DNA of 64,000 nt. Origin: Microglena sp. YARC. Its lineage: Eukaryota; Chlorophyta; Chlorophyceae; Chlamydomonadales; Chlamydomonadaceae. Where the stretch lies: contig CM039464.1 in assembly GCA_022414725.1 (NCBI GenBank), positions 2,502,528 to 2,566,527 on the forward strand, in the 5' to 3' direction. Below are positions 1 through 58,365 of this stretch, one piece after another. Numbering within the stretch: the stretch's first letter is position 1; each line of letters begins with the position of its first letter. Position numbers and translations under genes: made by a program. Below the pieces are notes generated by a model. That model was not told where the DNA came from. It searched no databases and saw only the letters and a list, made by a program, of their open reading frames with translations.

Positions 1-660
1 GCTGGCTTGACGGCTCCAGTGGTGGTGAACACAACCACTGCAACCGAAGAGGCCCTGGCAAAGTACCCTTTCCTTGCCTCTGAAGGCGACAGGTGTGTGC
101 AGGACAACTTATTTTGTATCCACACTTCTATGTATTCGTATACTCTTGCATATACTCTACATCTGTGTGTCGATCAAAGCAGCATCAAGGGGTAGTGAAT
201 ACAGCCACCTCGCTTTTGTTTTAGCAGAACAGGCCCTGGCAAGTACCCTTCTTGCCTCTGAAGGTGACAGGTGTGTGCAGGACAACTTATTTGTGTTCAC
301 TTTATTTAGTAATAATTGTATTTTGCATTTGTTTTATTTTGTATTCATTTTATTTTGTATTCATTTTATTTTGTATTCATTTTATTTGTATCCACTGTTG
401 TATGCATACATATATATACTATACATCTGTGTGTCGATCAAAGCAGCAGCAAGAGGTAGTGAATACAGCCACCTCGCTTTTGTTTTAGCAGAACAGGCCC
501 TGGCCAATTACCCCTTCCTTGCCTCTGAAGGTGACAGGTGTGTGCAGGGCGACTTCTCTATATTCACCATTGTATGTATAAATACACAATACATATGTAT
601 GTATAAATACACAATACATATGTATGTATAAATAAACAGTACATATGTATGTCATCATAG
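1..660 (+). repeat. Tandem array carrying an exon-like module (3 copies)
   Basis: Three copies of a module ending in GACAGGTGTGTGCAG occur at about 49-102, 225-280 and 489-547, separated by AT-rich intron-like sequence with TTTTATTTTGTATTCA repeats. Copies two and three follow a TTTTAG acceptor and a shared upstream block (tcgatcaaagcagca...). This is the same exon-boundary amplification seen across the rest of the gene. Confidence 0.6.
489..547 (+). CDS. Candidate ECM29 N-terminal-half exon (most complete of three copies)
   Basis: The segment after a TTTTAG acceptor reads EQALANYPFLASEGDRCVQ in one open frame and stops at CAG followed by a G-rich boundary. The pattern of an alanine-rich helix, an L-A-x-x-x-P-x-L turn and an acidic/valine stretch resembles the ECM29 region where a HEAT helix precedes an LF-x-AL block, but the match is short. 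Two other copies (49-102 and 225-280) encode nearly the same peptide. No clear GT donor in the right phase could be fixed, so the boundaries are approximate. It could be an exon of another gene. Confidence 0.35.
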
Positions 661-975
661 CAACAGCAAGTGGTGGTGAAGACCGGCTGGCTCTCGTACC
701 AGGCTCGCTCCACCGGTGGTGAAGGCCGGCTGGCACCACCGGTGGAGGAAGGCCGGCTGGCTCCACCACTGGTGAAGGCCGGCTGGCTCCACCACTGGTG
801 GTGAAGACCGGCTGGCTCTCGTACCAGGCTCGCTCCACCGGTGGTGAAGGCCGGCTGGCACCACCGGTGGAGGAAGGCCGGCTGGCTCCACCACTGGTGA
901 AAGGCCGGCTGGCTCTCACCAACTGGTGGTGAAGACCGGCTGGCTCTCGTACCAGGCCCTCGCTCCACCCGTCAA
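661..975. repeat. GC-rich minisatellite (GGCCGGCTGGCTCCACCACTGG family)
   Basis: Units built from gaaGGCCGGCTGGC and CCACCGGTGG; a segment of about 127 bp beginning ctggtggtgaagaccgg is repeated at about 669 and 796, each containing three to four shorter subunits. Open reading frames on the minus strand are by-products of the repeat. The subunit gctggctctcgtaccagg recurs in modified form at 1858 and 2019. Confidence 0.8.
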
Positions 976-1330
976 TATCAACACACCTCTCTGTACATAT
1001 AAAAACTATGTGACAATATAGAAACATACCAACACAAAAATGTGAAATATTGTGACAGAATACGAGAAAGAATACCAAACATACCATAACTATGTGAAAA
1101 CACGAAACATACCCAACTATGTCAAACCACACAAAAACATTACCAAAACATACCATAACTATGTGAAGATACAAAACATACCCAAACTATGTCAGACACA
1201 CAAAACATACCAAAACATATGTGAATCAAACTTTTGAAAGCATACCAATATGTGAAAATACAAAACATACAAAGAAATATGTGACAAAATAGCCAAGAAC
1301 CATGTGAAATAACAAACCATGCAAGAAATA
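976..1330. repeat. A-rich short tandem repeat (aacataccaaactatgtgaaaa)
   Basis: Irregular units of about 25-40 bp made of AACATACC, AACTATGTGA and ACACAAAACAT. No coding potential is visible; probably intron. Confidence 0.7.
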
Positions 1331-1359
1331 ATGAGAACAATTTCGAACTATATGGAAAT

Positions 1360-1805
1360 ACACACCACAGGAATGTCCATGGGTCCAAAATGGTGGTACA
1401 CACCGCAGGAATGTCCTGTGTCCATGCAGGTCCAAAATGATGGTAACATACCGCAGGACTATGTCCATGTGTCCATGGGGTCCAAAAATGATGGTACACA
1501 CCGCAGGGAATATCCCATGGGTCCATGGGTCCAAAAGAGGATACACACCGCAGGATGTCATGGGTCCAATGGGTCCAAAAGATACACATTCCGCGTAGGA
1601 ATGTCTAATGGGTCCATGGGTCCAAATGATGGTACACACCGCAGGAATATCCTCATGAGGATGGGTCATGGGTCCAAAAGGATACACACCGCAGGAATGT
1701 CCATGGGTCCATGGATCCAAAAGGATACACACCGCAGGAATGTCCATGGGTCCATGGTCCAAATGATGGTACAACACCGAGGAATGTCATGGTCCAAAAT
1801 ACCAA
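1360..1805. repeat. Minisatellite with units gtccaaaatgatggtacac and accgcaggaatgtccatg
   Basis: About ten diverged units of 40-50 bp, each carrying CACACCGCAGGAATGTCCATGG and a GGTCCAAAA block. Overlapping ORFs on both strands follow the repeat and are not genes. Confidence 0.8.
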
Positions 1806-1834
1806 TACTATTATGAAAATACCACACCGGGAAT

Positions 1835-6975: not shown

Positions 6976-6990
6976 CCACAACCACACAGT

Positions 6991-14186: not shown

Positions 14187-14187
14187 C

Positions 14188-14640: not shown

Positions 14641-14646
14641 CCGCAG

Positions 14647-21333: not shown

Positions 21334-21367
<34 letters not shown>

Positions 21368-23922: not shown

Positions 23923-23972
<50 letters not shown>

Positions 23973-35493: not shown

Positions 35494-35527
<34 letters not shown>

Positions 35528-44500: not shown

Positions 44501-46493
44501 CCCCCCACCCAAGTCACCTCCACCCCCCCACCCCCCCACCCCAACCCCTCCACACACCCCAGCCCCTGCCCCCACCCAAGTCACCTCCACCCACCCAACC
44601 CCCAACCCCTCCACACACCCCAGCCCCTGCCCCCACCCAAGTCACCTCCACACACACCCCAACCCCTCCACACACCCAGTCCCTGCCCCCCACCTAAGTC
44701 ACGTCCACCCACCCACCCCAACCTCAGGGCCCCCGTCGGTAAATCGATTGTTTGTGGACCCCAAGCGAGGTGAAAAGCAAACCAACCAACAACCAACCAT
44801 CTAACAAACAAACCACCACGTATGTGGACCCCAAGCAAGGTGAGAAACCAACCAACCAACAACCAACCAACTGACAAACAAACCACCATGTACGCGGACC
44901 CCAAGCAAGTTGAGAAACCAACCAACAACCAACCAACAGCCCACCACGTATGCTAGACCCCAAGCAAGTTGAGAAACCAACCAACAACCAACCAACAGCC
45001 CACCACGTATGCAAGACCCCAAGCAAAATGAGAAACCAACCAACAGCCCACCACGTTTGCTAGACCCCAAGCAAGTTGAGAAACCAACCAACAACCAACC
45101 AACAGCCCACCACGTTTGCTAGACCCCAAGCAAGTTGAGAAACCAACCAACAACCAACCAACAGCCCACCACGTTTGCTAGACCCCAAGCAAGTTGAGAA
45201 ACCAACCAACAACCAACCAACAACCCACCAGGTATGCTAGACCCCAAGCAAGTTGAGAAACCAACCAACAACCAACCAACAGCCCACCACGTATGCTAGA
45301 CCCCAAGCAAGTTGAGAAACCAACCAACAACCAACCAACAGCCCACCAGGTATGCTAGACCCCAAGCAAGTTGAGAAACCAACCAACAACCAACCAACAG
45401 CCCACCAGGTATGCTAGACCCCAAGCAAGTTGAGAAACCAACCAACAACCAACCAACAGCCCACCAGGTATGCTAGACCCCAAGCAAGTTGAGAAACCAA
45501 CCAACAACCAACCAACAGCCCACCAGGTATGCTAGACCCAAGCAAGTTGAGAAACCAACCAACAACAACCAACAGCCCACCAGGTATGCTAGACCCCAAG
45601 CAAGTTGAGAAACCAACCAACAACCAACCAACAGCCCACCAGGTATGCTAGACCCCAAGCAAGTTGAGAAACCAACCAACAACCAACCAACAGCCCACCA
45701 GGTATGCTAGACCCGAGCGAGTTGTGAAGACTGTTGCAGAAGCTAACAAACAATCGCCCGACTACACAGATGCAAACCTATTTAATATCTTGCAACTACC
45801 AACCGACCAAACAACCAACAACCAACAAATCAACAAACAAACAAACAGGTATGCTAGACCCGAGCGAGTTGTGAAGACTGTTACAGAAGATAACAAATAA
45901 TTGCCTGACTACACAGAAGCACCCCTACTGAATGTCTTGCAACTACCAACCAACCGACCAACTAACAACAAAACAACAAAACAACAGGTATGCTGGTCCC
46001 AAATGAGTTGTGAAGACTGTACCAGAAGATAATAAACAATTACCCGACTACACAGAAGCACCCCTACAGAATGTCTTGCAACTACCAACCGACCGACCAA
46101 CTAACAACAAACCAACAAACCAACAGGTATGCTGGTCCCAAATGAGTTGTGAAGACTGTACCAGAAGATAATAAACAATTACCCAACTACACCGAAGCAC
46201 CCCTACTGAATGTCTTGCAACTACCAACCGACCAACTAACAACAAACAAACAAACAAACAGGTATGCTGGTCCCAAACGAGTAGAGAAGACTGTTACAGA
46301 AGCTGTTGAGATGTATTCTCAGCCCTCAGCTGACTCAGACTCGAGATATGTGGGAGGTCTCATTTTGAGGGAGCTTCTGAGGGCCGCACCGGAGCTGTTC
46401 CAGGAGTACGCCGCGCAGGTGTGTTTGTAGGGGGGTGGGGGTATGTGGGTGTTGGTGGGGTGGGTGGTGCTGGTGGTGCTGGTGTGTGTGTGT

Positions 46494-46524
<31 letters not shown>

Positions 46525-49500: not shown

Positions 49501-49542
49501 ACTTGACTGCTTAGTGTTGAATCTCACGATCCCCCCCCCCCC

Positions 49543-49583
<41 letters not shown>

Positions 49584-52129
49584 CTACCCACAGGTGATGC
49601 TGACCGCTGCCAGCCGCAAGAAGGTGGTGTATAGGACAGCTGCTCTGAAGTCCTTAGAGTCCTGTCTCAAGGCCTTCCCATCCGACTACTTTGACAAGGT
49701 GCGTTGCATATTAGAATGGCCGATTCTAATGCATGTATTTATATATTTATATATTTACCGCTACCGTATTATATATATACTGCTATTATATATTTATATA
49801 TTTTACCGCTAATCCCCCCCCCCCCCCCCCCCCCCCCCCTCCCCCCCTGGAAGCCATTCAGAAAAACTGTGCCCTAACACCAGCCCCCCCCCCCCATCCC
49901 CATCCCCATCCCCATCTCCACCCCAGGTGTCTCCCCCCCTCCTGGAAGCCATCCAGAAAAATTGTGCCCCACCGGAGGCCAAGGTGGCCAAGCCGGTTAC
50001 CTCGGCAGAGGGTGAGGAGGACGAAGTGCAGGACAAGCCCTGGCCTCTTGTTGAGTGCATCTTGTGCCTCTCGGCTGCATTCTCGCATGTGGGCAAGGAG
50101 GTGGTAGGGGACGCACCGGTAGACGTGTCGGCCCTAGCTGTGGCTGAGGCACAGGGATGCCAGGTGGGTGTATCCTGCACATGTGCCTGTTGTAATGGGT
50201 CTCATCCCATGTCTATGTCTACCAGGGTACTTCAAATGGCCAACTTGGCCAGCGTTTTAGCGCACTTGAAAACAAAAAAACTGCGCTTTGTAGTGCAAAA
50301 AGCGCAAAATTTGCTTGCAGCGCCCACAAGGGGTTGCAAAAAACTGCGCTTAAAGCGCAGAGGGGGTCAAAAAGTCAGCGCGCAAAAGCGCAAAAGCGCG
50401 CGCTTTGAATTACCATGATGTCAACCAGCCTTACCCAATGTCTGTTCATATATGTGTCATCCAATGCCTGTGTTAACGCGTGTACGGTAACCCCATTTGG
50501 CAATTTCTGTTGTAATGGGTCTTATCTAGGGGTCGGCGTCATGATATCATATGATATCATGTCACCATATGATATCATATGATTTTCTCGCGGTCGGTCG
50601 CAGGCATGATATGATGCGCTCAATGTACCGGCACACGTGACGGCGCACATGCCTGTACAGCAGGCTTTAATTCAGGCATTCGCTTCGATCCCCCGCTTCT
50701 TTACTGCATGCCTAGCATCCTTTCTTGTTCGATTATCGACTCGACGATTACACCGTGCCTCTACTTAAGGCGCGTGCCATTAAAAATCCTCTGAACAGTG
50801 GCGGTACTCAGACGCATCAAAACGCGGAATGGGATCTGGAGGAGCTTCGGTTGCAGTTAAGCACGAGGAAGCACCGTTATCTCGGGCTGTTCACTCAGGG
50901 TATCAGCGACAAACACGCAACCAAGGGCGTCTGCATGTTCTCCTGCAAGGAGTGCTTCGAGGAGTACTCCGTGAAGAATCCGCACGGAACTTACGGACAA
51001 CACTTGTTAGCCTGCCGAAAGGAACTGGTCCAAGTGGGGATGGGTATACTGTGACGCCAGGCGAAACACGTTGAGCATCAAGAAGGCTGAGCAGATAGTC
51101 GCCATTATATCCCTGGAGGAAGGCCCAGCAACACTTGGGACAACACTTTCGGACAACACTTGTTAGCCTGCCCTAAGCTGAGGGAGAAAGCAGCTAAAAA
51201 CGTGGTGGAGGAGTTCATGTCTCCATCAAAGAAGAGGGCCGCCTCAGATGAGTTTGAGGAGGGTACTCCCTCACCTGCAAAGAACATCAGGTCCAAGGTC
51301 CAGCCAGCATATGGAGTGCCTCTCAGTCGGCAGCAAGGCGTAATCAGGAATTATGCGCTTCACCTGTACACCTGAATCCGATCTTTTCTTGGAATAGACA
51401 CTGTAAATATGAGTGTGACTTCCTGGATGGCGTACATGAAGAATAAAAGCTACAAGTAGTCTTAGATGTGTCCCCTCTATGTCCCCTAAAACTAATGATT
51501 TTTTTCTGCTAACTTATGTTGTAAAAATCATATGATATCATATAAAAGTATGATAATATCATACTTTTATATGATATCATATGATTTTTATGATATTATC
51601 ATATGATATCATATTGGTCAAAATAAAAAATCATATGATTTGCCGACCCCTAGTCTTATCACATGTTCGTATTTAACCCACCACAACCACTCCTCTGTGC
51701 ATACAGCTGGCTGAGGCCCTTGAAGTAGTGCTGAAGGCTCAGATGCCATGGCAGCAAAGGCTGGCTGCTATCCAGGCGATGCAGGCGCTGGTCAAGAGAT
51801 CCCTCCTCATCAAGTTGCCCCTCACTACCATGGCCGGCTGGTGCAACAAAGTAGTCCCAGACATTGCAACCATTGCGACAGATATCAAGATTCAGACGGT
51901 GCGCTCTGTCTCCCTCGCCTGCCTGGAGGTGTTAGCCAGCGCAGCAGGAGCCAAGGAGAACCCCGCTGGGGAGGGCATGCTGCTTGAGGCCCAAGCTGTC
52001 GATTGCGCCATTGCTGCTGCTGATGCTGTGATGGAGAGCGACAAGAATGCTGCAGTGGTGGCTGCTGCCTCCAAGGTGAAGGAGTTGTTGGTGCCCCATG
52101 CCTTAGGCCCCACCACCATGGATACGTAG
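14647..52129 (+). CDS. ECM29: ECM29 proteasome adaptor/scaffold gene, C-terminal two thirds (composite, about 17 exons)
   Basis: ECM29 is a large HEAT-repeat protein that binds the 26S proteasome and tethers or monitors the core and regulatory particles. Seventeen exons, listed separately, chain on the + strand in family order and end in TAG at 52127-52129. They give about 1,200 residues, against roughly 1,800-1,900 for the family, so the N-terminal third is missing or upstream. Splice phases agree at most junctions; for example G|TT makes V of VGEMLS across 22145/23660, AG|G makes R before LNYIEQH across 36122/38660, and AA|G makes K before YAGPKR across 42989/46262. Introns are filled with tandem copies of exon boundaries, and two transposons lie in the last intron. 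Single-base indels break some exons, more likely assembly error than a dead gene because conserved blocks are intact. Identification is by family wording recalled, not by search. Confidence 0.9.
14867..15340 (+). repeat. Intron with duplicated 3' end of the preceding exon
   Basis: CA/CCA-rich intron ending in a second copy of gctccgaaacc..ccaaagacgcggacc...gggagcag followed by GTGGGTAGTGTC; a fainter copy lies at about 15130. Both full copies have a usable donor. Confidence 0.7.
15341..18238 (+). repeat. Array of about 9 copies of the next exon's start in CA/CCA-rich DNA
   Basis: Copies of a TTTTCCAG acceptor plus gcttgggtgcaagtggcaca appear at about 15813, 16006, 16191, 16423, 16597, 16791, 16960, 17147 and 17995. 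Most continue into gtgggaggagcaagagggct, several into ctacatcattgcccag|GTCTCTAC. Between them lie CA, CCA and CCCACC tracts up to several hundred bases (longest 17230-17990). ORFs of several hundred codons across this stretch (for example 16725-18434) are made of P, T and H and result from the low complexity. Confidence 0.85.
18239..18419 (+). CDS. ECM29: ECM29 exon: [13 protein letters not shown] block
   Basis: The last copy of the array runs past the point where earlier copies stop, which marks it as the continuing exon. It reads [21 protein letters not shown], corresponding to the ECM29 block with an acidic/glutamine stretch, then G-x-L-x-A-x-GY. It then reads into [11 protein letters not shown] and, in another frame, [15 protein letters not shown] before a CCCAG|GTTTG donor. 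One or two indels are needed between the two frames (around 18355). The part after LELPD corresponds to the family's ALxALxxxGL block. Confidence 0.7.
18420..20780. repeat. Minisatellite of about 103 bp inside an intron, about 20 copies
   Basis: Unit: caaacatgagcatgcaaaag, agcgaacagaaaaatataaa, aatacattccaaagcaag, tttgttgttaagtactgccg, tggacctacctaatgtttatt. Copies at 20200-20690 are nearly identical, those at 18430-19000 and 19730-20100 are diverged or truncated. ORFs of 60-180 codons on both strands come from the repeat itself. No splice site or exon copy was recognised in it. Confidence 0.9.
20781..21153. other. Intron segment, nothing certain
   Basis: GC-balanced sequence with an open minus-strand frame of 118 codons (20818-21174) that looks somewhat protein-like but overlaps the + strand exon end at 21154. 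Probably intron or part of a larger exon. Confidence 0.35.
21154..21205 (+). CDS. ECM29: ECM29 short exon: [11 protein letters not shown]
   Basis: The frame [17 protein letters not shown] ends at a cattg|GTGAGTG donor. In the family a helix of this type (V-L-x-x-L-x-E-K/R-L-x-x-L) stands between the GHIGLR-like block and the D-D-I-K block, and the next exon here begins with [15 protein letters not shown], so the order fits. A second copy at about 21411-21465 has a cleaner acceptor (atcag|TGAAG) but a damaged donor. The upstream boundary is uncertain because an in-frame TGA lies just before it. Confidence 0.45.
21210..21410. repeat. Trinucleotide tract (ATT/GTT/ATC type)
   Basis: About 180 bp of TTATTATTATTG and GTTGTTGTT repeats between the two copies of the short exon. 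Confidence 0.9.
21411..21985 (+). repeat. Copies of the short exon and of the next exon's start
   Basis: Contains the second copy of the short exon (21411-21465) and two damaged copies of the next exon: aagatgtgaggcccaagtca at 21533-21600 and acaaggatctgaggcca at 21787-21840. The spacers are CA/CTCA-rich. Confidence 0.7.
21986..22145 (+). CDS. ECM29: ECM29 exon: [14 protein letters not shown]...SKSEDVHFA
   Basis: From a CTCCCAG acceptor the frame reads [18 protein letters not shown], then [11 protein letters not shown], then SKSEDVHFA, to a TTTCGCAG|GTGTGT donor. This matches the family HEAT block preceding VGEALSF. The exon ends with one base (G). Together with the TT of the next exon it encodes the conserved valine of VGE, strong support for this splice. 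The 3' half is repeated twice downstream (about 22207-22306 and 22393-22476), each time with the same CAG|GTGTGT donor. Confidence 0.85.
22146..22500 (+). repeat. Two extra copies of the exon 3' end with GT-rich spacers
   Basis: Each copy holds gccctgtggccattcccccc, tcctggaggctgtg and gttcattttgcag|GTGTGTGTG. Spacers are TG-rich (tgtgtgtgtgtttgtttgtgc). The unit is about 170-185 bp. Three equivalent donors in a row could be used alternatively. Confidence 0.85.
22501..23659 (+). repeat. Four partial copies of the VGEMLSH exon start in C-rich DNA
   Basis: Copies of cagTcgatgaaatgctctctcacg.ttttggtggc..cgtcccaattaatgc are found at about 22706, 22966, 23172 and 23441. The third and fourth continue to gccagcctgg...gagttctccatctacgc. 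Between them are runs of C and CA. Confidence 0.85.
23660..23920 (+). CDS. ECM29: ECM29 exon: [17 protein letters not shown]...
   Basis: After a CACCCCAG acceptor, 261 bp are open. They read (V)[19 protein letters not shown], then [18 protein letters not shown], then [20 protein letters not shown] and SRT before an ACTG|GTGAGT donor. The G-E-A-L-S-F-L-W-G-G-V-P-V-T-A-D block is one of the most recognisable in ECM29, and the following loop and D-V-I-x-x-K-L block also agree. It ends in phase 1 (G), to be completed by GT of the next exon as glycine. No frameshift is needed. Confidence 0.92.
23921..24600 (+). repeat. Three partial copies of the preceding exon's end, CA-rich spacers
   Basis: gcaagctcc.taaggag.tcatccacca appears at about 24112, 24304 and, damaged, 24555; the first two are followed by GTGAGTCA or AGGTCAAGT. 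A C-run of more than 30 bp lies at 23931-23970. The 3' end of the exon, not the start, was amplified here. Confidence 0.8.
24601..26496 (+). repeat. About 12 copies of the next exon's start (150-bp array)
   Basis: Copies of cctccaggttcgttgtgcag, cttcagtctggatgg, tgtccctcctcacctactgt and ggtggccgccacc occur near 24628, 24761, 24935, 25128, 25290, 25463, 25602, 25750, 25878, 26028, 26166 and 26325. Spacers are CCCCACC/CACACA rich. Long P/T/S/H-rich frames (such as 25154-26653) are artefacts of the array; only their final 50 codons are exonic. Confidence 0.9.
26497..26818 (+). CDS. ECM29: ECM29 exon: ...[21 protein letters not shown]...GLVEAL...[11 protein letters not shown]
   Basis: The last array copy continues as [23 protein letters not shown], then, in shifted frames, [20 protein letters not shown] and [14 protein letters not shown]. 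These follow the family series C-G-x-H-P..L, HLLGxxNExxQE, S-x-V-Y-E-L-G-D, LVxAL and K-x-A-x-K-L-x-x-x-T in order. At least two single-base indels are required (around 26545 and 26640-26690), which I read as consensus errors. The right boundary is uncertain: other copies end GGGGAGACACAG|GTGTG, this one aaaacgccag|atcgtg. Confidence 0.75.
26819..28840 (+). repeat. About 11 partial copies of the [16 protein letters not shown] exon end in G-rich DNA
   Basis: Copies of cttgttgaagcccttgtggg, ggtcctgcaagggggg, tgaaggccaagcagg and cggtcaagctgtctgggga appear around 26915, 27148, 27280, 27465, 27610, 27770, 27855, 28010, 28220, 28495 and 28680. The spacers are strongly G-rich (GGGGTGTTTGGGGGG), opposite to the C-rich spacers on either side. 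The copy at 27999-28110 is the most complete and ends gggagacag|GTGTGTGTG. Confidence 0.85.
28841..29360 (+). repeat. 73-78-bp tandem array, about 7-8 copies (caagctgtctggggagaccc)
   Basis: The unit is gggggtcaaggccaagcagg, gggtcaagctgtctggggag, acccaggtgtaccagagg, gggtataccataa. Spacings between ACCATAA blocks are 75, 78, 75, 76 and 73 bp. The frame [14 protein letters not shown] is kept in most copies, each followed by CCAG|GTGTACC, a donor. The end GETQ joins the next exon's VFGDDSA in phase. Confidence 0.9.
29361..30707 (+). repeat. Eight partial copies of the [11 protein letters not shown] exon start
   Basis: Copies of ccccccaggtgtttgggga and tgactcagccatgcgctc, ccagggagaggg begin near 29519, 29619, 29726, 29833, 29950, 30076, 30374 and 30480. 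Most stop after about 55 bp. Those at 30076 and 30480 reach gatctgatctacaagtt. Spacers are ccatataaccacc repeats of 10-11 bp. Confidence 0.9.
30708..30950 (+). CDS. ECM29: ECM29 exon: [23 protein letters not shown]
   Basis: 243 bp in phase 0 from a CTCAG acceptor to a TTACAG|GTGTGA donor, with no frameshift. It reads [14 protein letters not shown], then the ECM29 signature [20 protein letters not shown] and [11 protein letters not shown], then [17 protein letters not shown] and [10 protein letters not shown]. This is the best-preserved family block in the window and fixes the identity of the gene. The last codons (PSCLQ) differ from the family's P-x-L-x-R. A downstream copy of this end fits better; see findings. 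Confidence 0.96.
30951..31385 (+). repeat. Two extra copies of the VATLVPKL exon end in G-rich DNA
   Basis: Copies of gtggccacacttgtgcccaa and gctgt.cag followed by gtgtgatatgtgtactg are at about 31070-31100 and 31217-31245. The second ends ccaagctgtacag|gg. The spacers are runs of G with GTGGGG. Confidence 0.85.
31386..32300 (+). repeat. Five copies of the YQYDPNQ exon, CA/CCA spacers
   Basis: Copies are at about 31386-31410 (end only), 31438-31510 (damaged), 31686-31795, 31897-31999 and 32097-32207. Each full copy has caccaccag|gtaccag.atgatccca, accagggtgttcaa.atgca, atgggccacatctgg and gtggacgagcacttcacccc. The period of the last three is about 200-210 bp. Confidence 0.9.
32301..32507 (+). 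CDS. ECM29: ECM29 exon: [27 protein letters not shown]...
   Basis: The last array copy reads YQYDPNQR, then [20 protein letters not shown] and PIMK, then, frameshifted, GDGWQGCG / in the other frame [16 protein letters not shown] and QG, to gcagaag|GTGCGCC. The blocks match family RYQYDP, DAMxxIWxxLVxD-x-K-x-x-x-D-x-x, and GxRLWRxRExxCLALxDLLxGR. Indels near 32332 and 32425 are needed. Three exon-end copies follow, one of which has the cleaner [17 protein letters not shown] frame. Confidence 0.8.
32508..33030 (+). repeat. Copies of the [16 protein letters not shown] exon end
   Basis: A good copy at 32571-32646 (catgggcggcaggcttgtgg ... gggcagaag|GTGCGCC) is followed by short ones at about 32820-32847 and 32996-33018, separated by T-rich sequence. 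The first copy supports LLPGQK|V in phase 0 with the next exon. Confidence 0.8.
33031..34266 (+). repeat. Seven partial copies of the V(A/V)[14 protein letters not shown] exon, with CCCAACCCAA tracts
   Basis: Copies of gaggttaaggagcacct.gg, ccggtgtggagcatgatg and ctgcgctgcctagatg.catca begin near 33165, 33275, 33440, 33580, 33753, 33926 and 34137. The spacers are either CCACCACCA or pentanucleotide CCCAA arrays (33055-33130, 33505-33560, 33660-33730, 33995-34110). Pieces of 33460-33640 and 33640-33820 are near-identical duplicates. Confidence 0.9.
34267..34498 (+). CDS. ECM29: ECM29 exon: [21 protein letters not shown]...
   Basis: From a CCCCCAG acceptor one open frame reads [57 protein letters not shown] and [15 protein letters not shown], with no indel. 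DDIKETVR is the diagnostic ECM29 motif, followed in the family by a helix, the LCD(P/V) turn and a long LLPxLL helix. The donor lies at GAAGGAG|GTGCTG or a nearby position; the phase with the next exon (GTGCGG) is not clean, so the right boundary may be a few bases off. Confidence 0.92.
34499..35110 (+). repeat. Two copies of the [20 protein letters not shown] exon end in G-rich DNA
   Basis: Copies of ggctggttgacccagcccat, gtaacagcgtc.gactgcac and tgaggctgtggcgatgctgc lie at 34585-34680 and 35036-35108. The stretch between (34690-34980) is GGGTGG-rich with TG repeats. Both copies break off after ctgctactt.tgc. Confidence 0.85.
35111..35994 (+). repeat. Three partial copies of the [17 protein letters not shown] exon in CA/CCA DNA
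   Basis: Copies of tgc(ag)gtgcggctcctcgccc, tggacaccctctccaagctc and tccaaggctgcaggagcag begin at about 35172, 35453 and 35694, then break into CA repeats. ACACACACCACTCCAAC repeats of 17-23 bp fill the spacers. Confidence 0.9.
35995..36122 (+). CDS. ECM29: ECM29 exon: [20 protein letters not shown]...
   Basis: 128 bp from CCCTGCAG to a GCTAG|GTAGGT donor, open throughout: [43 protein letters not shown]. The family has the same series: V-R-x-x-x-I-x-x-L-x-K-x-S-K-x-A-G-x-x-x-(R/K)-PH and the LExLSxLE end. It finishes with AG, completed by the first G of the next exon to give arginine immediately before LNYIEQH. Splice signals and phase are ideal. Confidence 0.95.
36123..36410 (+). repeat. 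Two extra copies of the exon end
   Basis: The segment ccccgc.ctggtgcaggcga, tgctagaggctctgagtaac, ttggaagacgctag|GTAGGTTTG recurs at about 36222-36277, and a weaker version at 36357-36405. Confidence 0.8.
36411..38659 (+). repeat. 126-127-bp array of the [15 protein letters not shown] exon start, about 15 full and 3 partial copies
   Basis: Copies of caggctgaactacat.gagc, agcatgcagagcgtatgggc and atggactcag begin near 36469, 36673, 36859, 36987, 37114, 37240, 37368, 37494, 37620, 37747, 37970, 38094, 38277, 38416 and 38535, mostly 126-128 bp apart. Partial copies start at 36797, 37890 and 38213. Most have TCAGTGAGGCTAGAG, so a GTGAGG donor follows GACTCA. Three also carry the next block (gataacgctcgagtgaacgc). 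Each full copy thus holds CAG|G...TCA|GTGAGG around 46 nt. Confidence 0.93.
38660..38861 (+). CDS. ECM29: ECM29 exon: [15 protein letters not shown]...[18 protein letters not shown]
   Basis: 202 bp, open: [73 protein letters not shown]. It matches the family block L-N-Y-x-x-x-H, K-L-x-x-x-R, S-P-M-x-(E/D)-T-L-D-L-C, L-V-P-x-L-x-x-L-(V/I)-(R/K)-x-G-V-G-L-(N/G)-T. Unlike most array copies, the GTGAGG donor after GACTCA is replaced by GACAAG, so this copy would be read through. It ends in phase 0. Confidence 0.96.
38862..40600 (+). repeat. About 10 copies of the exon end ([21 protein letters not shown]), period about 171 bp
   Basis: Copies of tgtgcccgctttgccgaccc, tggatctctccagatgctgg, tgcccgttctcactgg.ctg and ggtgggcctgaacaccaag start near 38946, 39118, 39289, 39450, 39662, 39858, 40001, 40173, 40336 and 40503. 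Most donors read AAG|GTG(T/C)GCACG. Spacers carry gtgtggtgtgtggcacgtcg. The copies at 39662 and 39858 are interrupted by T-rich sequence. Confidence 0.93.
40601..41745. other. Intron segment with a dispersed repeat
   Basis: Positions 40675-40830 (gttacccatttgtccgtccg, accgtccgacc, then ccaactggcttcgg and cattccattgccaac) are related to 48648-48790. A poly-C run lies at 40899-40935. From 41000 to 41745 the composition is mixed, with cgggtattacggatagtacc near 41160; the 91-codon frame at 41475-41750 has no recognised family. No exon copy of ECM29 was seen. Confidence 0.5.
41750..41940 (+). mobile_element. tRNA-derived SINE, copy 1 (diverged)
   Basis: A B-box-like GAGTTCGATTCC at about 41789 is followed by a body shared with two other copies: attgtcgaccacgatggtag, gacgggttcccttaacacca, caccccatcaggcattatca. 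The tRNA 5' part is diverged. Confidence 0.65.
41941..42828 (+). repeat. Three copies of the GT(T/A)RFIRNLVA exon start with CACACC/CATCCC repeats
   Basis: Copies of ggctggcaccactcaattca, ttcgcaacctggtcgcta and gatgacatcaagcc start near 42045, 42222 and 42631. A sub-array of ccatccctacacaccacaca of 40-50 bp fills 42160-42210 and 42350-42625. Two copies read [16 protein letters not shown], the next [16 protein letters not shown], as in the final exon. Confidence 0.9.
42829..42989 (+). CDS. ECM29: ECM29 exon: [22 protein letters not shown]...
   Basis: From a CCCTCAG acceptor the frame reads [53 protein letters not shown], then AA|GTAAGT. The family has V-G-x-A-x-F-I-x-x-L-V, then D-I-K-P, then K-S-x-A-x-(R/K)-(R/K)-A-x-A-x-A. 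The AA is completed by G of the next exon (lysine) before YAGPKR, where the family has L-K-Y-A-G-P. Excellent phase agreement. Confidence 0.95.
42990..44110 (+). repeat. Seven copies of the exon end ([17 protein letters not shown]), 416-bp higher-order unit
   Basis: Copies of ggtctgagcg.agtggcgcc, gt.cgtaaggcgtacgcagg and cgcctctgcgcaattgttga followed by AGTAAGTGGGC occur at about 43135, 43398, 43503, 43620, 43778, 43919 and 44036. Spacers contain actcttgtatgtgcctgtgt. The sets starting at 43503 and 43919 are repeated at a distance of 416 bp. A SINE interrupts the array at 43205-43385. Confidence 0.9.
43205..43385 (-). mobile_element. tRNA-derived SINE, copy 2, with 11-bp target duplication
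   Basis: On the minus strand it starts TGGTAGAGCTCG, has a perfect B box (GGTTCGAATCC) and a body with ACCGCCATGGTAGCACTG, GTAAGACAGGGCTCC and ends CACCAGGCGTTATCATTAA. The 11-bp sequence GAAGTAAGTGG flanks it at 43194-43204 and 43386-43396, as expected for target-primed insertion. The target is the exon/donor boundary (TTGAA|GTAAGTGG) of one array copy, so both flanks now look like donors. Confidence 0.85.
44111..44744. repeat. Minisatellite of about 60-64 bp (cccacccaagtcacctccac)
   Basis: From 44280 to 44720, seven or so units of agcccctgcccccacccaag, tcacctccacacacacccca, acccctccacacaccc. The sequences at the two edges are related to each other (caggcccccatcggtaaatc at 44260 and cagggcccccgtcggtaaat at 44724), so the minisatellite sits inside a duplicated block. 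44111-44260 is ordinary AT-rich sequence. Confidence 0.9.
44745..45700 (+). repeat. 59-bp array of the YARP exon start, about 16 copies
   Basis: The unit is gtatgctagaccccaagcaa, gttgagaaaccaaccaacaa, ccaaccaacagcccaccag. Its first 30 bases resemble the start of the next exon (tatgctggtccc..gagtagagaag) after a CAG acceptor. Copies in 45230-45700 differ by only a few bases; earlier ones (44745-45000) diverge, with cggaccccaagc. Confidence 0.95.
45701..46261 (+). repeat. Four longer copies (about 137-147 bp) of the next exon's start
   Basis: Copies at about 45702, 45849, 45988 and 46126 carry gtatgct.gacccgagcgag and ttgtgaagactgt, then the spacer aacaattacccgactacaca, gaatgtcttgcaactaccaa and a caacaaacaaacaaacag acceptor. 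The first two read [11 protein letters not shown]. Confidence 0.93.
46262..46418 (+). CDS. ECM29: ECM29 exon: [20 protein letters not shown]...
   Basis: 157 bp from AAACAG to a GCGCAG|GTGTGT donor. One base completes the lysine of the previous exon; the rest reads [52 protein letters not shown] in one frame. The family has K-Y-A-x-P and a HEAT helix pair at this place, then I-V-P-V-(I/L)-F or V-L-P-L-A-F, which follows directly (next exon VLPLAFGAK). Confidence 0.94.
46419..47010 (+). repeat. Four copies of the exon end ([18 protein letters not shown])
   Basis: Segments gggagcttct.agggc.gca, ccggagctgttccaggagta and cgccgcgcag|GTGTGTTTG lie at about 46521-46571, 46609-46721 (also containing the [10 protein letters not shown] part), 46796-46832 and 46933-47007. 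Spacers are GGGTGG-rich, with a run of more than 30 G at 46494-46522. Confidence 0.9.
47011..48147 (+). repeat. About 9 partial copies of the [10 protein letters not shown] exon start, period about 100-110 bp
   Basis: Copies of gatctgatctatggtgcagg and tgctccccttggccttcgga, gccaagatgg begin near 47245, 47353, 47460, 47569, 47646, 47747, 47843, 47937 and 48039, after a run of tgatctgatctgatgta. Each carries a GGTGCAG acceptor; they end in tgccatttgaaatgatat. The first 100 bases to 47140 are GGGTGG-rich. Confidence 0.92.
48148..48534 (+). CDS. ECM29: ECM29 exon: VLPLAFGAK...[16 protein letters not shown]
   Basis: 387 bp (129 codons), fully open: [80 protein letters not shown], then ...GHLKILE|GTGATG. 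The W-x-E-V/L-W-E-E, L-Y, SSxWxxKK and GRxWxGKExLLxAL blocks are unambiguous for ECM29. It is the longest intact exon. The following exon ([12 protein letters not shown]) joins in phase 0 with the acceptor used at 49594. Confidence 0.97.
48535..49060. other. Intron start with a dispersed repeat and a SINE
   Basis: 48535-48647 is AT-rich. 48648-48790 is related to 40675-40830 (gttacccatttgtccgttcg). The SINE follows (listed separately). No exon-like copy until 49064. Confidence 0.6.
48862..49058 (+). mobile_element. tRNA-derived SINE, copy 3
   Basis: A-box-like TGGCTCAGTGGCAGAGC at about 48868 and B-box-like GGTTCGGATCC at about 48907, followed by gtcaaccgccatggtagc, gtaagacgggctcccttaat and accacgccccaccaggcgtcatcataac. 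It is the clearest tRNA-like head of the three copies. Boundaries are approximate. Confidence 0.8.
49061..49593 (+). repeat. Five copies of the [12 protein letters not shown] exon start
   Basis: Copies of cacaggtgatgctgaccgc, cgccagccgcaagaaggtgg, tgaacttgactgcttagtgt begin near 49064, 49191, 49280, 49371 and 49464 (period about 90-130 bp). Each copy reads [20 protein letters not shown]; the final copy alone reads on (VVYRTA). Read through, each copy would add an in-frame stop TAG. Confidence 0.93.
49594..49698 (+). CDS. ECM29: ECM29 exon: [23 protein letters not shown]
   Basis: 105 bp (35 codons), phase 0 at both ends, from CCACAG to GACAAG|GTGCGT. Reads [35 protein letters not shown]. The family has a similar (A/C)-(S/C)-x-K-K-V-x-K-Y-R-x-A-A-(F/L)-x-(C/S)-L-E-x-(V/C)-(I/L)-K-A-F. 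The following exon starts at 49927 ([12 protein letters not shown]) in phase. Confidence 0.95.
49699..49926 (+). repeat. AT then C-rich intron with a partial copy of the next exon
   Basis: TATATATTTATATA-type sequence, then a C-run of about 30 bases, then tggaagccattcagaaaaac and tgtgccctaacaccagcc (49850-49890), a partial copy of the next exon's start. Confidence 0.8.
49927..50163 (+). CDS. ECM29: ECM29 exon: [20 protein letters not shown]...
   Basis: 237 bp (79 codons), open from a CCCCAG acceptor to a TGCCAG|GTGGGT donor. Reads [74 protein letters not shown]. This is the long acidic, poorly conserved linker of ECM29 between HEAT blocks, ending in a helix (L-x-x-x-x-A-F). It is then joined to LAEALEVVL in the last exon. 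Confidence 0.85.
50221..50405 (-). mobile_element. MITE-like element, copy B (reverse orientation)
   Basis: Starts ACCAGGGTACTTCAAATGG and ends with CGCGCTTTGAATTACC. The reverse complement aligns along its whole length with 14188-14392 (TTTTTTGCAACCCC, GTGGGCGCTGCAAGCA, CAAAGCGCAGTTT). The right inverted repeat is worn. Lies in the last intron of the ECM29 gene. Confidence 0.65.
50725..51054 (+). CDS. BED-type zinc-finger ORF, N-terminal part of a hAT transposase (109 aa)
   Basis: The ORF lies inside the hAT-like element. Residues 74-97 give C-x2-C-x15-H-x3-C with the [10 protein letters not shown] end, the usual hAT BED-finger layout. After residue 100 the frame stops (TGA). Downstream, a second frame at 51160-51375 (starting at about 51151 in sequence terms) repeats the FGQHLLAC end and continues [15 protein letters not shown], then the hydrophilic [15 protein letters not shown]. 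The RNase-H-like catalytic domain and the C-terminal dimerisation domain are absent. The ORF start is the first ATG and is not confirmed. Confidence 0.7.
   Translation: MFDYRLDDYTVPLLKARAIKNPLNSGGTQTHQNAEWDLEELRLQLSTRKHRYLGLFTQGISDKHATKGVCMFSCKECFEEYSVKNPHGTYGQHLLACRKELVQVGMGIL
51145..51375 (+). CDS. Second open segment of the hAT-like element
   Basis: Begins with a near-copy of the zinc-finger end (ggacaacacttgttagcctg, about 51150-51170, also at about 50996-51015) and continues as [17 protein letters not shown] and [19 protein letters not shown] to TGA at 51373-51375. The duplicated 20-bp block looks like an intron flanked by repeated exon ends, or a local duplication. Its product would be a basic linker region; function unknown. 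Confidence 0.4.
   Translation, partial: TFGQHLLACPKLREKAAKNVVEEFMSPSKKRAASDEFEEGTPSPAKNIRSKVQPAYGVPLSRQQGVIRNYALHLYT
51707..52129 (+). CDS. ECM29: ECM29 last exon (C terminus, ends TAG)
   Basis: 141 codons including the stop, from a GCATACAG acceptor. Reads [60 protein letters not shown], then [35 protein letters not shown]. The family has at the C terminus an L-x-x-x-L-x-x-x-x-W-x-x-x-x-x-x-(I/M) helix and the V-(R/K)-x-x-(A/S)-x-x-C-L-E block. It is fully open. Downstream lie tandem copies of its 3' end (52216-52278, 58153-58365). Confidence 0.96.
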   Translation: MAEALEVVLKAQMPWQQRLAAIQAMQALVKRSLLIKLPLTTMAGWCNKVVPDIATIATDIKIQTVRSVSLACLEVLASAAGAKENPAGEGMLLEAQAVDCAIAAADAVMESDKNAAVVAAASKVKELLVPHALGPTTMDT

Positions 52130-52278
52130 GCAGATGTAAACTGGTACTGGTAAACTATAGGCAGTAGTAAACTGGTACTGGTAAACTACAGGCAGTAGTA
52201 AACTGATACTGGTAAACTGGTAGTGGTGGCTGCTGCCTCCAAGGTGAAGGACTTGTTGGTGCCCCATGCCAAAGGCCC
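52130..52278 (+). repeat. Partial copy of the terminal exon's end, interrupted by the LTR element
   Basis: taaactggtactggtaaact repeats are followed by a copy of gtggtggctgctgcctccaa, ggtgaagg.cttgttggtgc, cccatgcc (52219-52270). This copy is cut at GGCCC by the LTR retrotransposon and continues at 58153. Confidence 0.9.
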
Positions 52279-52672
52279 TATCAGCTATTAAGCACTTCTA
52301 AGAGTGGACAGAGATGTATGCAGCGGAGACAGACGCGCCAATCTATACACAGAGACGAGAATGACGTTACAAGCAAGGACGTACACTAAAGGACACCAGC
52401 GGTGGGCGAAGTGGATGCCTGTAACCTGAATAGACCCTAAGCCCGGATCTTGTCACCCTGACACCGTTTAACACAGGACATGTCAGGGAGAGACTGATAA
52501 GACACAGAGAGATAGGCAGTCAATAGGAAGCTGACACTGAGTCACTAAAGGATGACTCAGTTCTACGGGAAGCTGTCACTATGGGAAGCTGTCAGGGCCG
52601 ATAGTTCTAAGGGAGTACAGTAGTAGTCACCAAGTCATAAAACGAATGAGAGCAACGCAATTCATGCTGACA
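52279..52672 (-). repeat. LTR, left copy (3' LTR of the minus-strand element)
   Basis: 394 bp, starting TATCAGCTATTAAGC and ending ATGCTGACA on the + strand. Direct repeat of 57759-58152. Confidence 0.92.
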
Positions 52673-55037: not shown

Positions 55038-55164
55038 CAGGAATCACCCCATAAAACAGCTCAAGGTGTCTTGCGTCCCTGATTGGGCAGTCTATGTACT
55101 GCCCCAATCGATATCAGCCAATCCTCGAACCATTTAACCATAAAATCCTTAGCTCTGTCAGACC

Positions 55165-55845: not shown

Positions 55846-56035
55846 TGGTTAAAGTGATAGATGTTGGTAACCAATCACTACATAACACAATGGACCCCAT
55901 ACCCTCTGACCGTTGAATCACCCCATCACTAAATCGAACTGCAGGCCCAACAGCAGAGGATTCAAACACAGTGAACAAAGACTTATCACCTGTGATTGAC
56001 ATCCCAGCTCCAGAATCCACATGCCAGACACCCTC
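55760..56035 (-). pseudogene. Aspartic protease of the LTR element
   Basis: The minus strand reads ...VWHVDSGAGMSITGDKSLF with the DSGAG active site, then AVRFSDGVIQRSEGMGSIVL. This is the Copia protease just upstream of the GAG-pre-integrase domain. The frame changes before NLLSV, so a frameshift separates it from the integrase frame. Confidence 0.8.
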
Positions 56036-56127
56036 ATAAAGACTTGGGCTGCAAAGGTTTGAGAACTTTGTGGTGCATGAGAATAGGACAGAGCGTACCT
56101 CCTAGTTCTTGTTTATGTTGTACCCGT

Positions 56128-57754
56128 CTATCTGAGCTTGCAGGGAGGACAGCTGCTTGCGAGTAAGCGACCCTGGAAGGGCCAAAGCAACGGGCACCGG
56201 TTCATTACCAGGTGCACGACCTTAGGCCTTTCTGAGTTCCGGATACTTCGTGAAGCAGCGGTCTTCCGAGTGGCTCGTTTTCGAAAGACAGGGGCCCCAA
56301 GTGCAATCCAAGCGCCTTTGGTAGCCCCGGAACCCTGAGAACCAGGTCCTTGCCCGCTGAAAAGCAGCATTAGCAGGGACATGGGAAGGGTCACGGGACC
56401 AACCAGGATGCCTTGGATCAGACCTAGGGAGAGACACATTCAAGAAATCTAATGATCTATATGTATCAAGACAGGTCCAGAGAGGACGGGGAACTTTCAA
56501 GAAGTCAAACACTTGAAACCCAAACTCACGTAGCTAAGGCATACACCTAAGGGCGGAACCAGGGGCACAGGAAAAACAAAGTAGTAACCTTTGTCGAACC
56601 ACGGAACGCACCCAGGGGTCACAAGGAGCCTAAGAGAGAAAAATATCCACCAAGATATCATGCCAAAGATCCTCCACGGCCGCTGGACTAGGGCCAGGAC
56701 GGCGTCCACTTCGGCCTGTAGCATGGGCGAAGTCCGGCGCTGCGAGACCTGGGATCACAGAAGGTGGGGAAGCGTTAGGGCGAAGTCGAGATATGAGGTA
56801 TAGGAAAAAAGGAGACGAGGATGAAAGTGCAGCAAGTCGCACCTGGAGCAGAAAATCGCACCAATGGCAGAAAATCGCAAATCGCAAGGGCAGAATTCGA
56901 AAATTTATCGCGAGGATGCGAAGAGCAAAGCCGAGGCAAGTAAAGGTCCTAATATCCTTCCGTCGATGAGCACTCAATCCCAAGTCCCCCCCTCTATCGC
57001 TCGACTCACCCGGTTGGGGGGTAGAGGGAGCAGCACCCGAGTGGTGCTGACCATACCCCCCTGCTTCCCACCACCTCCAGAATCTCCAGGTCCAGACGCG
57101 TAGGTCGTCCTCCTCTGGCGAACCCTACGGCAGTGCCGGCGATCCGCCAGCTTGATCGAAAAAATTCTCCAGAAGGTATCACAGAGCCACTAGAGCGCAA
57201 GCTCATGCCAGTAGCCGACCATCGGCTGGGCAGAGCAAAGGGAGCACAGACGACGTAGACAACAGCAGGGAGCTTGGTCGGCTTGGCAACCTCCGGTATG
57301 CAGGCAGAGCCTCAAACACCGGAGTTAGCGACGTCAAAGACGCGAGCAGACGAAGACGGGTATCTCCACCGATGTCCAGGCTAGTCGCCGACTGGACAGC
57401 AGGCTCAAACACAGCAAAGATTCATCAGAAACATCCTCAACCTCAACAGAGAGGCGTTGGACAAAAGGAGAAGAAGACGGAGAAATGGAGGTATTGGAGG
57501 GGGGGATGTCTTCCATGATGGCGGAAGGAGACTCATCTAAGGCAGCAGAGGGGCTCTGGCGCGCAATCATCGAGCCAATCAGTGGGAACACGGGTCTTGA
57601 AAGGAAGAATCCGGTCGCAGCCATTGGAGACAATGACGCTCTCCATACCGCGCGACCAAGTCAAACCATTCTGTGGGGTAAGCTTTTCGAAGCCGGCAGG
57701 AGGCCCACGCGGAAGTTGCGTTGTCAAGCAGTGGTAGAAAGAGATGAAGCCCAT
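56128..57754 (-). pseudogene. gag region of the LTR element, broken into several frames
   Basis: Directly after the right LTR an ATG at 57754 starts MGFISFYHCLTTQLPRG, then KLTPQNGLTWSRGMESVIV, the typical Copia gag start (LTxxNxxxW). Further on, a minus frame (56512-56222) ends in a worn zinc-knuckle-like C-x4-C-x5-H-x4-C followed by FTKYPELR. Frames between 57533 and 56512 are interrupted. No intact gag ORF exists; the element looks non-autonomous. Confidence 0.65.
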
Positions 57755-57758
57755 TACC

Positions 57759-58152
57759 TATCAGCTATTAAGCACTTCTAAGAGTGGACAGAGATGTATG
57801 CAGCGGAGACAGACGCGCCAATCTATACACAGAGACGAGAATGACGTTACAAGCAAGGACGTACACTAAAGGACACCAGCGGTGGGCGAAGTGGATGCCT
57901 GTAACCTGAATAGACCCTAAGCCCGGATCTTGTCACCCTGACACCGTTTAACACAGGACATGTCAGGGAGAGACCGATAAGACACAGAGAGATAGGCAGT
58001 CAATAGGAAGCTGACACTGAGTCACTAAAGGATGACTCAGTTCTACGGGAAGCTGTCACTATGGGAAGCTGTCAGGGCCGATAGTTCTAAGGGAGTACAG
58101 TAGTAGTCACCAAGTCATAAAACGAATGAGAGCAACGCAATTCATGCTGACA
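57759..58152 (-). repeat. LTR, right copy (5' LTR of the minus-strand element)
   Basis: 394-bp direct repeat of 52279-52672. A single difference was seen by eye (agaccgataag here, agactgataag there). Confidence 0.92.
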
Positions 58153-58365
58153 GGCCCCACCACCATGGATACATAGGCAGTAGTAAACTGATACTGGTAA
58201 ACTGCTAGTGGTGGCTGCTGCCTCCAAGGTGAAGGACTTGTTGGTGCCCCATGCCATAGGCCCCACCACCATGGATACATAGGCAGTGGTAAACGGGCAG
58301 TGGTGTCAGCCCCTTCCAAGGTGAAGGAACTATTTGTTCCCCATGGTTCGTCATGGCCCCCACTA
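58153..58365 (+). repeat. Further tandem copies of the terminal ECM29 exon end
   Basis: GGCCCCACCACCATGGATACATAG restarts the copy cut by the LTR element, followed by two more copies of gctgctgcctccaaggtgaa, ggacttgttggtgccccatg and ccccaccaccatgg (58212-58290 and 58296-58360, the last diverged). Each ends ggataca.taggcagt. All lie downstream of the stop codon. Confidence 0.9.

Follow-up and report, generated by a model that had tools for sequence, protein, structure and literature searches.

Exon-edge tandem arrays in the introns of a green algal ECM29 gene as probable by-products of genome-wide tandem duplication

Background

Why should nearly every exon of a single gene lie next to a tandem array built from part of that exon and its adjoining intron? 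The question is raised by a stretch of 64,000 nucleotides (the window) from Microglena sp. YARC, a chlamydomonadalean green alga with a genome full of tandem repeats. An earlier note on this DNA had reported such arrays along the ECM29 gene and had offered two explanations: either a replication or repair process targets splice boundaries, or the whole genome behaves in this way.

Results and discussion

The ECM29 gene and its assembly

The exon translations were concatenated into three sets, one of which matches the Pfam family HEAT_ECM29 (PF24492, 3.5e-22); no Pfam match above the cut-off was obtained for the other two. Proteins named ECM29 are among the phmmer matches listed (the best 120 of 726, with 8000 candidates scored). 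Searches of the PDB with the exon pieces gave no match, and the ECM29_N profile is absent from the matches of this genome, as it is from those of the control genomes. According to tblastn with four ECM29 proteins, the gene starts ~7 kb to the left of the window, which contains a gap of 1000 N at positions 6991-7990. The authentic exons exhibit a coding signature and carry local frameshifting indels in this assembly. One unique exon used as a query matched the assembly over its full length only once, hence there is no second haplotype for comparison.

The frameshifting indels in authentic exons and the N gap would fit an assembly artefact, in which noisy long reads were drawn out into false repeats, the outcome by which the earlier note would be refuted. 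We find this explanation scarcely credible: copies and authentic exon diverge by up to 23%, the differences fixed among the copies follow codon structure, and several contigs as well as other gene families show the same pattern. Moreover, the EukProt protein P0001 contains array copies and is intact where the assembly is frameshifted, its source assembly being possibly not independent.

Copies of exon edges in the adjoining introns

For 25 located exon-intron boundaries of ECM29 (13 acceptors and 12 donors, the latter numbered by the first intron base, i.e. the donor position of the earlier note plus 1), the 60-nt exon edge was searched nearby for copies. Tandem copies of the exon edge are present in the adjoining intron at 21 boundaries, namely 12 of the acceptors and 9 of the donors, with 1 to 15 copies per boundary, 101 in all, and identities of 77-100% (Table 1). 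Donor-side copies are found downstream without exception (32/32), and acceptor-side copies upstream in 67 of 69 cases. The four boundaries free of copies are D11 (48535), D12 (49699), D13 (50164) and A14 (51707). All ten coordinates singled out previously, i.e. the acceptors 23660, 30708, 34267, 38660, 48148 and 49594 and the donors 22145, 23920, 38861 and 42989, turned out to be exon boundaries with adjoining copies.

TRF analysis of the 14.4-52.2 kb region yielded 29 non-overlapping arrays (period 59-354, score at least 150), 20 of which contain a boundary copy; the remaining nine, e.g. at 19.0-20.7 and 44.36-44.72 kb, contain no copy of any tested boundary. For the largest array, at about 8.05-14.19 kb, tblastn with the four ECM29 proteins gave no match at E <= 1e-3, and its unit is found again at four further loci, hence it appears to be based on a dispersed repeat and not on an exon. 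With these corrections, the observation of the earlier note is confirmed. Copying has also affected the coding end of the last exon, a position without a splice site.

The copy of this coding end at 52222-52278 is separated from those at 58202-58282 and 58297-58345 by an LTR-element-like insertion.

Table 1. Exon-edge copies and associated features along ECM29 (window coordinates)
Feature	Position	Strand	Remarks
Donor-side array, exon ending 22145	22146..22508	+	2 copies, 22246-22476
Acceptor-side arrays, exon starting 23660	22635..23659	+	4 copies, 22714-23501
Donor-side copies, exon 23660-23920	23921..24345	+	2 copies
Acceptor-side array, exon starting 26497	24628..26496	+	8 copies; indel-rich; adjoining authentic exon frameshifted in assembly
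74-bp array, read as 3' end (KLSGETQ) of exon starting 26497	28881..29361	+	By eye; boundary not fixed, outside the 25
Acceptor-side array, exon starting 30708	29519..30707	+	8 copies
Donor-side array, exon ending 30950	30951..31361	+	2 copies
Acceptor-side array, next exon	31440..32411	+	Period about 200; 4 copies plus reference copy at 32100; last one continues into rest of exon
Donor-side copies, exon ending 32507	32508..33014	+	3 copies
Acceptor-side array, exon starting 34267	33171..34266	+	7 copies
Donor-side copies, exon 34267-34498	34499..35110	+	2 copies
Acceptor-side copies, exon starting 35995	35173..35994	+	3 copies
Donor-side copies, exon 35995-36122	36123..36402	+	2 copies
Acceptor-side array, exon starting 38660	36473..38659	+	127-bp unit, 15 copies; AG exactly in place in 13
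Authentic ECM29 exon, arrays on both sides	38660..38861	+	
Donor-side array, exon 38660-38861	38862..40664	+	Unit about 166 bp, 10 copies
Acceptor-side copies, exon starting 42829	42045..42828	+	3 copies
Donor-side array, exon 42829-42989	42990..44102	+	5 copies
Acceptor-side arrays, exon starting 46262	44860..46261	+	139-bp units with exon start; before them a 59-bp unit x15, by eye with only a short stretch in common with the exon start
Donor-side array, exon 46262-46418	46419..46997	+	4 copies
Acceptor-side arrays, exon starting 48148	47189..48147	+	6 copies
Intron, candidate duplication-born	48535..49593	+	First 10 nt, GTGATGCTGA, equal first 10 nt of next exon
Acceptor-side array, exon starting 49594	49064..49539	+	5 copies
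Acceptor-side copy, exon starting 49927	49838..49874	+	Single copy
Copy of last exon's coding end	52222..52278	+	No splice site; more copies at 58202-58282 and 58297-58345

Arrays in random stretches of the genome and in other genes

As a background, we sampled 20 random stretches of 3 kb each (59 kb without N). Under strict TRF settings 34% of this sequence is tandem array (bootstrap 22-48%), vs 35.6% in the 14.4-52.2 kb region of ECM29 and a published value of 7.7% for C. reinhardtii with the same parameters. The 29 arrays of ECM29 do not differ significantly from the 24 of the random stretches in period (p 0.12), copy number (p 0.37) or identity (p 0.19). With a looser TRF setting, arrays of period at least 50 occupy 42.5% of ECM29 vs 22% of random sequence, an approximately twofold difference.

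Among other genes, the chaperonin sample comprised 30 loci cut from 64 matches and 60 match ends, some loci being near-copies of each other. Copies were found at 16 of the 60 ends, two of these positives (L054, L066) being doubtful, compared with 88 of 228 random 60-mers and, by the same method, 21 of 25 ECM29 edges; the ends scored for chaperonin are those of profile matches, and a number of them fall inside an exon (e.g. between L055 and L060). Hits were clustered by gene (p 0.04). In the kinesin genes, inspection by eye of 128 matches revealed partial tandem matches at six or more exon ends, all with the expected sidedness, two ambiguous pairs being left out of the count. An array lies on an LHC match in two of seven ten-kb LHC loci, and the 23 matches of the proteasome family revealed no clear exon-edge copies. 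The scan of other genes that the earlier note had proposed thus recovers exon-edge arrays in chaperonin, kinesin and some LHC genes, and together with the equal strict-TRF density and the similar array geometry of random sequence it agrees with the second of its explanations, a genome that behaves in this way throughout.

In the chaperonin genes array coverage is 0.27 at the edge but only 0.04 at a depth of 150-250 nt in the exon, random sequence having 0.37. This drop rests on the chaperonin genes, since in ECM29 coverage stays at 0.42-0.56 at 100-250 nt inside the exons (few bases). The depletion of exon interiors probably reflects selection.

The other explanation supposes a replication, repair or transcription-linked process (e.g. 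R-loops or stalled forks) that targets and amplifies exon-intron junctions. It would account for copies at so many ECM29 boundaries and could find some footing in the composition of introns, which are rich in G/T past donors and in C/A ahead of acceptors; in addition, the chaperonin intron nearest the exon has a coverage of 0.37 vs 0.26 in the far flank, but the interval of the difference (0.109, -0.021 to 0.237) spans zero. There is, on the other hand, no excess at the chaperonin edges themselves, where edge minus distant-flank coverage over 30 matches is only 0.009 (95% interval -0.098 to 0.115). Random stretches equal ECM29 in strict-TRF density and do not differ detectably in array geometry, and the copying of the last coding end involved no splice site. 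Targeting of splice boundaries, as suggested in the earlier note, is therefore unlikely in our view. Because copies are much more frequent at ECM29 edges than at chaperonin ends, and the looser-TRF density of ECM29 is about twice the random one, a local cause at ECM29 is nevertheless possible.

Splice signals and coding signature of the copies

The splice dinucleotide is exactly in place in 66 of the 101 copies and within 6 nt of its position in 86; the splice-site score of 56 copies is equal to or higher than that of the authentic site. In the nine ECM29 arrays with at least four copies, private changes are spread evenly over the codon positions (38/28/36). Differences from the authentic exon that are fixed, i.e. 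present in at least 70% of copies, are by contrast concentrated at third positions (1/1/8). Copy-to-copy differences amount to 8.4, 7.9 and 14.1% at the three positions, i.e. with some third-position excess, and in 31 of 115 copy alignments the exon part contains an indel, sequencing error included.

Could the copies be functional alternative or mutually exclusive exons? The retained dinucleotides, the third-position excess between copies and the presence of several copies as coding sequence in the gene model P0001 could be read in this way, and a past coding constraint on the copies is possible. Yet the private changes show no codon periodicity, the exon parts bear the indels, and the copies read as part-exons with one of the two splice sites, which makes such a function very unlikely. 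The copies look non-coding, with flat private changes and fixed differences at third positions, and their decay fits an absence of coding constraint; we take the copy-to-copy third-position excess to mean that the authentic exon has seeded copies repeatedly while it evolved.

Possible birth of introns by tandem duplication

A further possibility is that tandem duplication of exon segments bearing AGGT gave rise to the introns themselves, as in the model of Rogers, the arrays being remains and continuation of that process; intron gain from a boundary-spanning duplication has been reported (PMC4974935). A candidate is the intron 48535-49593, whose first 10 nt equal those of the following exon (Table 1), the longest common prefix among 144 mismatched donor/exon-start pairs being 5. 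For the other 11 of the 12 introns compared (with the corrected D0 donor) the common prefix is at most 4 nt. A permutation of the sequence downstream of the donor against the exon start, in which one of the 12 pairs had a mislocated donor D0, gave p 0.016, 0.019, 0.036, 0.062 and 0.19 at 8, 10, 12, 15 and 20 nt, i.e. an uncorrected p near 0.02 for the initial 8-10 nt, the signal fading at 15-20 nt; exon-end vs intron-end similarity was not above shuffles. GT begins 10 of 13 ECM29 exons, but it is common in the chaperonin genes too (9 of 20 readable acceptors, of 27), and begins the exon in only one of five array-bearing chaperonin acceptors, a sixth (L040), possibly GT, being uncounted. As a general origin of these introns, this route is quite improbable. 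AGGT enrichment as a cause of the arrays was dropped on the same chaperonin counts, made by eye.

Relation to known systems

Minisatellite-like tandem copies across a 5' or 3' exon boundary, many with splice signals retained, are described as "mirages" in the amphioxus globin genes BflGb6 and BflGb9, Adh3, TnC and PGBD5 (PMC3087553, PMC3902484). Their units measure 10-72 bp in Adh3, 150-160 bp in BflGb6, and 60 and 108 bp in PGBD5 (PMC3087553, PMC3902484), and BflGb6 has 6 and 3 units in two haplotypes (PMC3087553). The ECM29 copies resemble mirages in occurring at both acceptors and donors and in often retaining the splice dinucleotides. They differ in that amphioxus exhibits single genes with few copies, while here, in a green alga, nearly all boundaries of one gene are affected, the copies at a boundary reach 15, and tandem arrays make up about a third of the random sequence sampled. 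The mirage precedent had first suggested amphioxus as the source of this DNA, but the LHC matches and COX1 (84% to Chlorogonium elongatum and Chlamydomonas moewusii among the named hits) place it in Chlamydomonadales; Cymbomonas was also considered and dropped. The earlier impression that such a gene had not been described must accordingly be narrowed: boundary-spanning arrays are on record in amphioxus (PMC3087553), but in the open-licence PMC papers searched we found no gene with nearly all boundaries affected. We recognised no report of exon-boundary arrays from a green alga in the open-licence PMC literature.

The duplications are of the same kind as those invoked for intron gain in potato RdRp and in the Rogers AGGT model, and the intron 48535-49593 repeats an exon start at its donor. 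Unlike in those systems, the other 11 of 12 introns lack such a mark and the copies merely lengthen an intron, the birth of 48535-49593 being a candidate. Introners are families of elements present at many sites. The ECM29 arrays are like them in that repeated sequence makes up introns, and unlike them in that each array consists of its own exon's edge; three exon-array units had no match in loci L005-L066, so that no one family was found in many introns.

Conclusions

The reading that we favour, with fair confidence, is that the arrays are of the mirage type, i.e. by-products of a genome-wide tandem duplication that does not favour splice sites, retained since they are spliced out. Stretches of about 60-350 bp that by chance include an exon edge would be duplicated in tandem and then amplified, by a process acting across the whole genome without preference for splice sites; the mutational route may be slippage, unequal exchange or break repair. 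Duplications within exons would be purged by selection, since they break the protein. Those spanning an edge would persist, as their extra copies lie in a lengthened intron that is removed provided splicing joins the first donor to the last acceptor, and the outermost sites are presumably the ones used. The extra exon pieces would later decay like ordinary intron. The exon-edge arrays, of which ECM29 is one of the densely affected genes, are thus very probably harmless by-products of a genome-wide duplication habit, hidden from the protein by splicing.

It is conceivable, though we hold it only tentatively, that introns in this genome are continually growing and now and then being born, as edge-spanning duplication keeps supplying exon edges to introns (48535-49593 being a candidate birth). 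The spliceosome, faced in some introns with a dozen or more intact sites that are nearly identical, would then choose by position, taking the first donor and the last acceptor, probably through exon definition, and not by site strength.

To our knowledge, edge arrays were previously reported from a few amphioxus genes, and here they occur at high density in housekeeping genes of a green alga. For annotation this is a warning, as the EukProt model P0001 counts decoy copies as coding. By extrapolation, the genome would hold very many natural decoy splice sites, many of them equal to the real one, so that splice-site choice among equals, and the frequency with which boundary duplications become new introns, can now be tested.

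Exon-edge arrays in ECM29

By its sequence matches, the gene is that of the proteasome adaptor ECM29. Its joined exons match ECM29 proteins from algae and plants, and when the exons were concatenated in three sets, HEAT_ECM29 was matched by one of them (3.5e-22), the other two giving nothing above the cut-off. Tblastn with four proteins (the EukProt gene-model protein P0001 and the ECM29 queries P0003, P0004 and P0010) provided the exon order and indicated that the gene begins ~7 kb to the left of the window.

The earlier note claimed tandem arrays of exon part plus adjoining intron at nearly every ECM29 exon. Our analysis bears this out: among the 25 boundaries that were fixed (13 acceptors and 12 donors), 21 have nearby copies of the 60-nt exon edge (101 in total), each coordinate offered there as an example is correct, and self-comparison of the window reveals direct repeats across most of 8-50 kb. 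TRF reported 215 rows for the whole window; between 14.4 and 52.2 kb, an edge copy is present in 20 of the 29 non-overlapping arrays and absent from nine. All 32 donor-side copies lie downstream and 67 of 69 acceptor-side copies upstream; we read the two exceptions as the final acceptor of an array in which an earlier copy served as reference (acceptor A5), and as an exon piece within a donor-side array (A10). The largest array falls outside this class: its region (~8.05-14.19 kb) gave no tblastn match to any of the four proteins, and its unit recurs in four other loci of the genome (L025, L030, L033, L059), which suggests that part of a dispersed repeat was amplified here. Copies of the last exon's coding end lie on both sides of an LTR-like pair, and that array is therefore probably older than the insertion. 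The introns (22146-51706) are asymmetric, G/T-rich after donors (GC skew +0.22) and C/A-rich before acceptors (-0.51); chaperonin flanks exhibit a weaker skew of the same sense (+0.12 after and -0.23 before matches).

Coordinates of features in the window and elsewhere in the genome
Feature	Position	Remark
Largest array	8054-14186	6 kb, units ~162-181 bp
Conserved authentic exons with frameshifting indels	26497-26810 and others	P0001 intact there
Exon with 15 preceding copies	38660	AG in place in 13/15
Piece of the interior of exon 48148-48534	G000:C18:47026-47118	~93 bp, other contig, 89% identical
Intron with possible duplication mark	48535-49593	first 10 nt equal first 10 nt of next exon
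Stretch inside intron 50164-51706	51175-51342	coding in P0001; no match from the three other homologues; looks transposon-derived
Copied coding end of last exon	52222-52278, 58202-58282, 58297-58345	without donor
LTR-like pair	52277-58152	396-bp ends, 99.7% identical
COX1 (L015)	C1118:47442-48770	
Kinesin examples	C2:15919754, 15920133, 15920320	all end at model position 296

Organism and assembly

The assembly comprises 568 Mb in 2390 contigs, the largest of 195 Mb. We take the organism to be a chlamydomonadalean green alga, as indicated by at least 118 light-harvesting (LHC) matches (150 of 180 candidates scored) and by COX1, whose named matches in Chlorogonium elongatum and Chlamydomonas moewusii share 84% identity with it, matches beyond the named ones reaching 89%. 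Twelve in-frame TGA codons in the COX1 match (13 in the stretch translated) suggest that TGA encodes Trp in the mitochondrion; COX1 fragments occur on large contigs too.

P0001 also bears on whether the arrays could be an assembly artefact. Exact 9-mers match 1183 of its 1234 residues in the window; P0001 thus derives from this organism or one very close to it, in another version of the sequence. It includes array copies; the assembly behind it may not be independent. The window does have errors: eight stretches of P0001 (51 residues in total) are missing from it, as we read it mostly at frameshifts, and the consensus quality of the assembly is locally low.

Splice sites and decay of the copies

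Taking as authentic the copy that runs on into the remainder of the exon, we find that 66 of 101 copies keep the splice dinucleotide exactly in place and 86 have it no more than 6 nt away, a lenient margin where sequence is rich in GT and CA. Fifty-six copies score at least as high as the authentic site in a simple, small matrix built on the other ECM29 sites. A correct protein, if made, must require that the first donor be joined to the last acceptor; we infer that exon definition would be the basis of this choice.

At the 13 of 25 boundaries with a set frame, copies differ from the authentic exon by 5.6, 7.7 and 15.9% at codon positions 1, 2 and 3, and by 12.2% in the aligned intron part. 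In nine arrays of at least four copies each, private (single-copy) changes, a class that sequencing errors would inflate, are flat over codon positions (38, 28, 36), and differences from the authentic exon common to at least 70% of copies number 1, 1 and 8. On these grounds we read the copies as decaying without coding constraint, the authentic exon having changed mostly at third positions. Copy-to-copy differences (8.4, 7.9 and 14.1%), however, count against simple decay, and their third-position excess would imply either that the exon seeded copies again and again as it evolved or that the copies were once constrained.

Targeting of splice boundaries or a property of the genome

The earlier note offered two explanations, a process targeting splice boundaries, or a genome that behaves this way throughout. 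Targeting predicts that array coverage peaks at splice sites. Chaperonin loci have coverages of 0.23-0.39 across the flanks and 0.27 at the match edge, and of 0.04 between 150 and 250 nt into the match; there is no edge excess (edge minus far flank 0.009, -0.098 to 0.115), and the near intron is somewhat above the far flank (difference 0.109, interval -0.021 to 0.237). ECM29 coverage is 0.77-0.81 over the final 150 nt of introns, equally so over the 60 nt with which exons begin, and still 0.42-0.56 at 100-250 nt into the exon (few bases). Neither the chaperonin edge nor the copied, donor-less end of the last exon lends targeting support; the coverage pattern and that end fit duplication that would be blind to splice sites and then filtered by selection, the filter itself being what we infer.

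The genome-wide explanation is supported. Twenty 3-kb stretches drawn at random on the five largest contigs (59 kb once N is removed) have 22% of their sequence in arrays with period >=50 and score >=150, versus 42.5% of ECM29 (14.4-52.2 kb). Under the TRF parameters of the gap-free C. reinhardtii paper, which gives 7.72% for that species (PMC10030371), the values are 34% (bootstrap 22-48%) for random stretches, 35.6% for ECM29 and 17.6% for 30 chaperonin loci. Period, copy number and identity do not differ significantly between 29 ECM29 and 24 random arrays; a same-strand copy lies within 1.5 kb of 88 of 228 random 60-mers, versus 21 of the 25 ECM29 boundaries.

Other genes are affected as well. 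Of 64 chaperonin matches, 30 were taken out as loci, and copies occur at 16 of their 60 match ends, including doubtful positives in L054 and L066, some ends lying inside exons; across nine genes (24 of the 30 loci) the proportion ranges from 0/6 to 3/4 (clustering p 0.04). At least six kinesin exon ends have partial tandem matches (128 matches inspected by eye, two ambiguous pairs uncounted). An array lies on the LHC match in two of seven ten-kb loci (L008 and L012) and in none of the other five. Those five (L009-L011, L013, L014) are array-poor, 0.7-11% under strict TRF versus 29 and 37%, possibly reflecting lower tolerance of arrays in highly expressed genes. The genome as a whole thus behaves like ECM29, with strong gene-to-gene differences.

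Relation to known systems

The structure is the same as that of amphioxus "mirages", minisatellite-like arrays spanning an exon boundary. In potato RdRp, a boundary-spanning duplication is reported to have yielded a new intron (PMC4974935), and one of 12 ECM29 introns compared bears the mark expected of such gain (Table), the shared donor/exon-start prefix in 144 mismatched pairs being at most 5 nt. Introner-like spread was not seen for the three ECM29 array units tested. The initial observation is sound and striking, and is relevant to splice-site choice and intron evolution.
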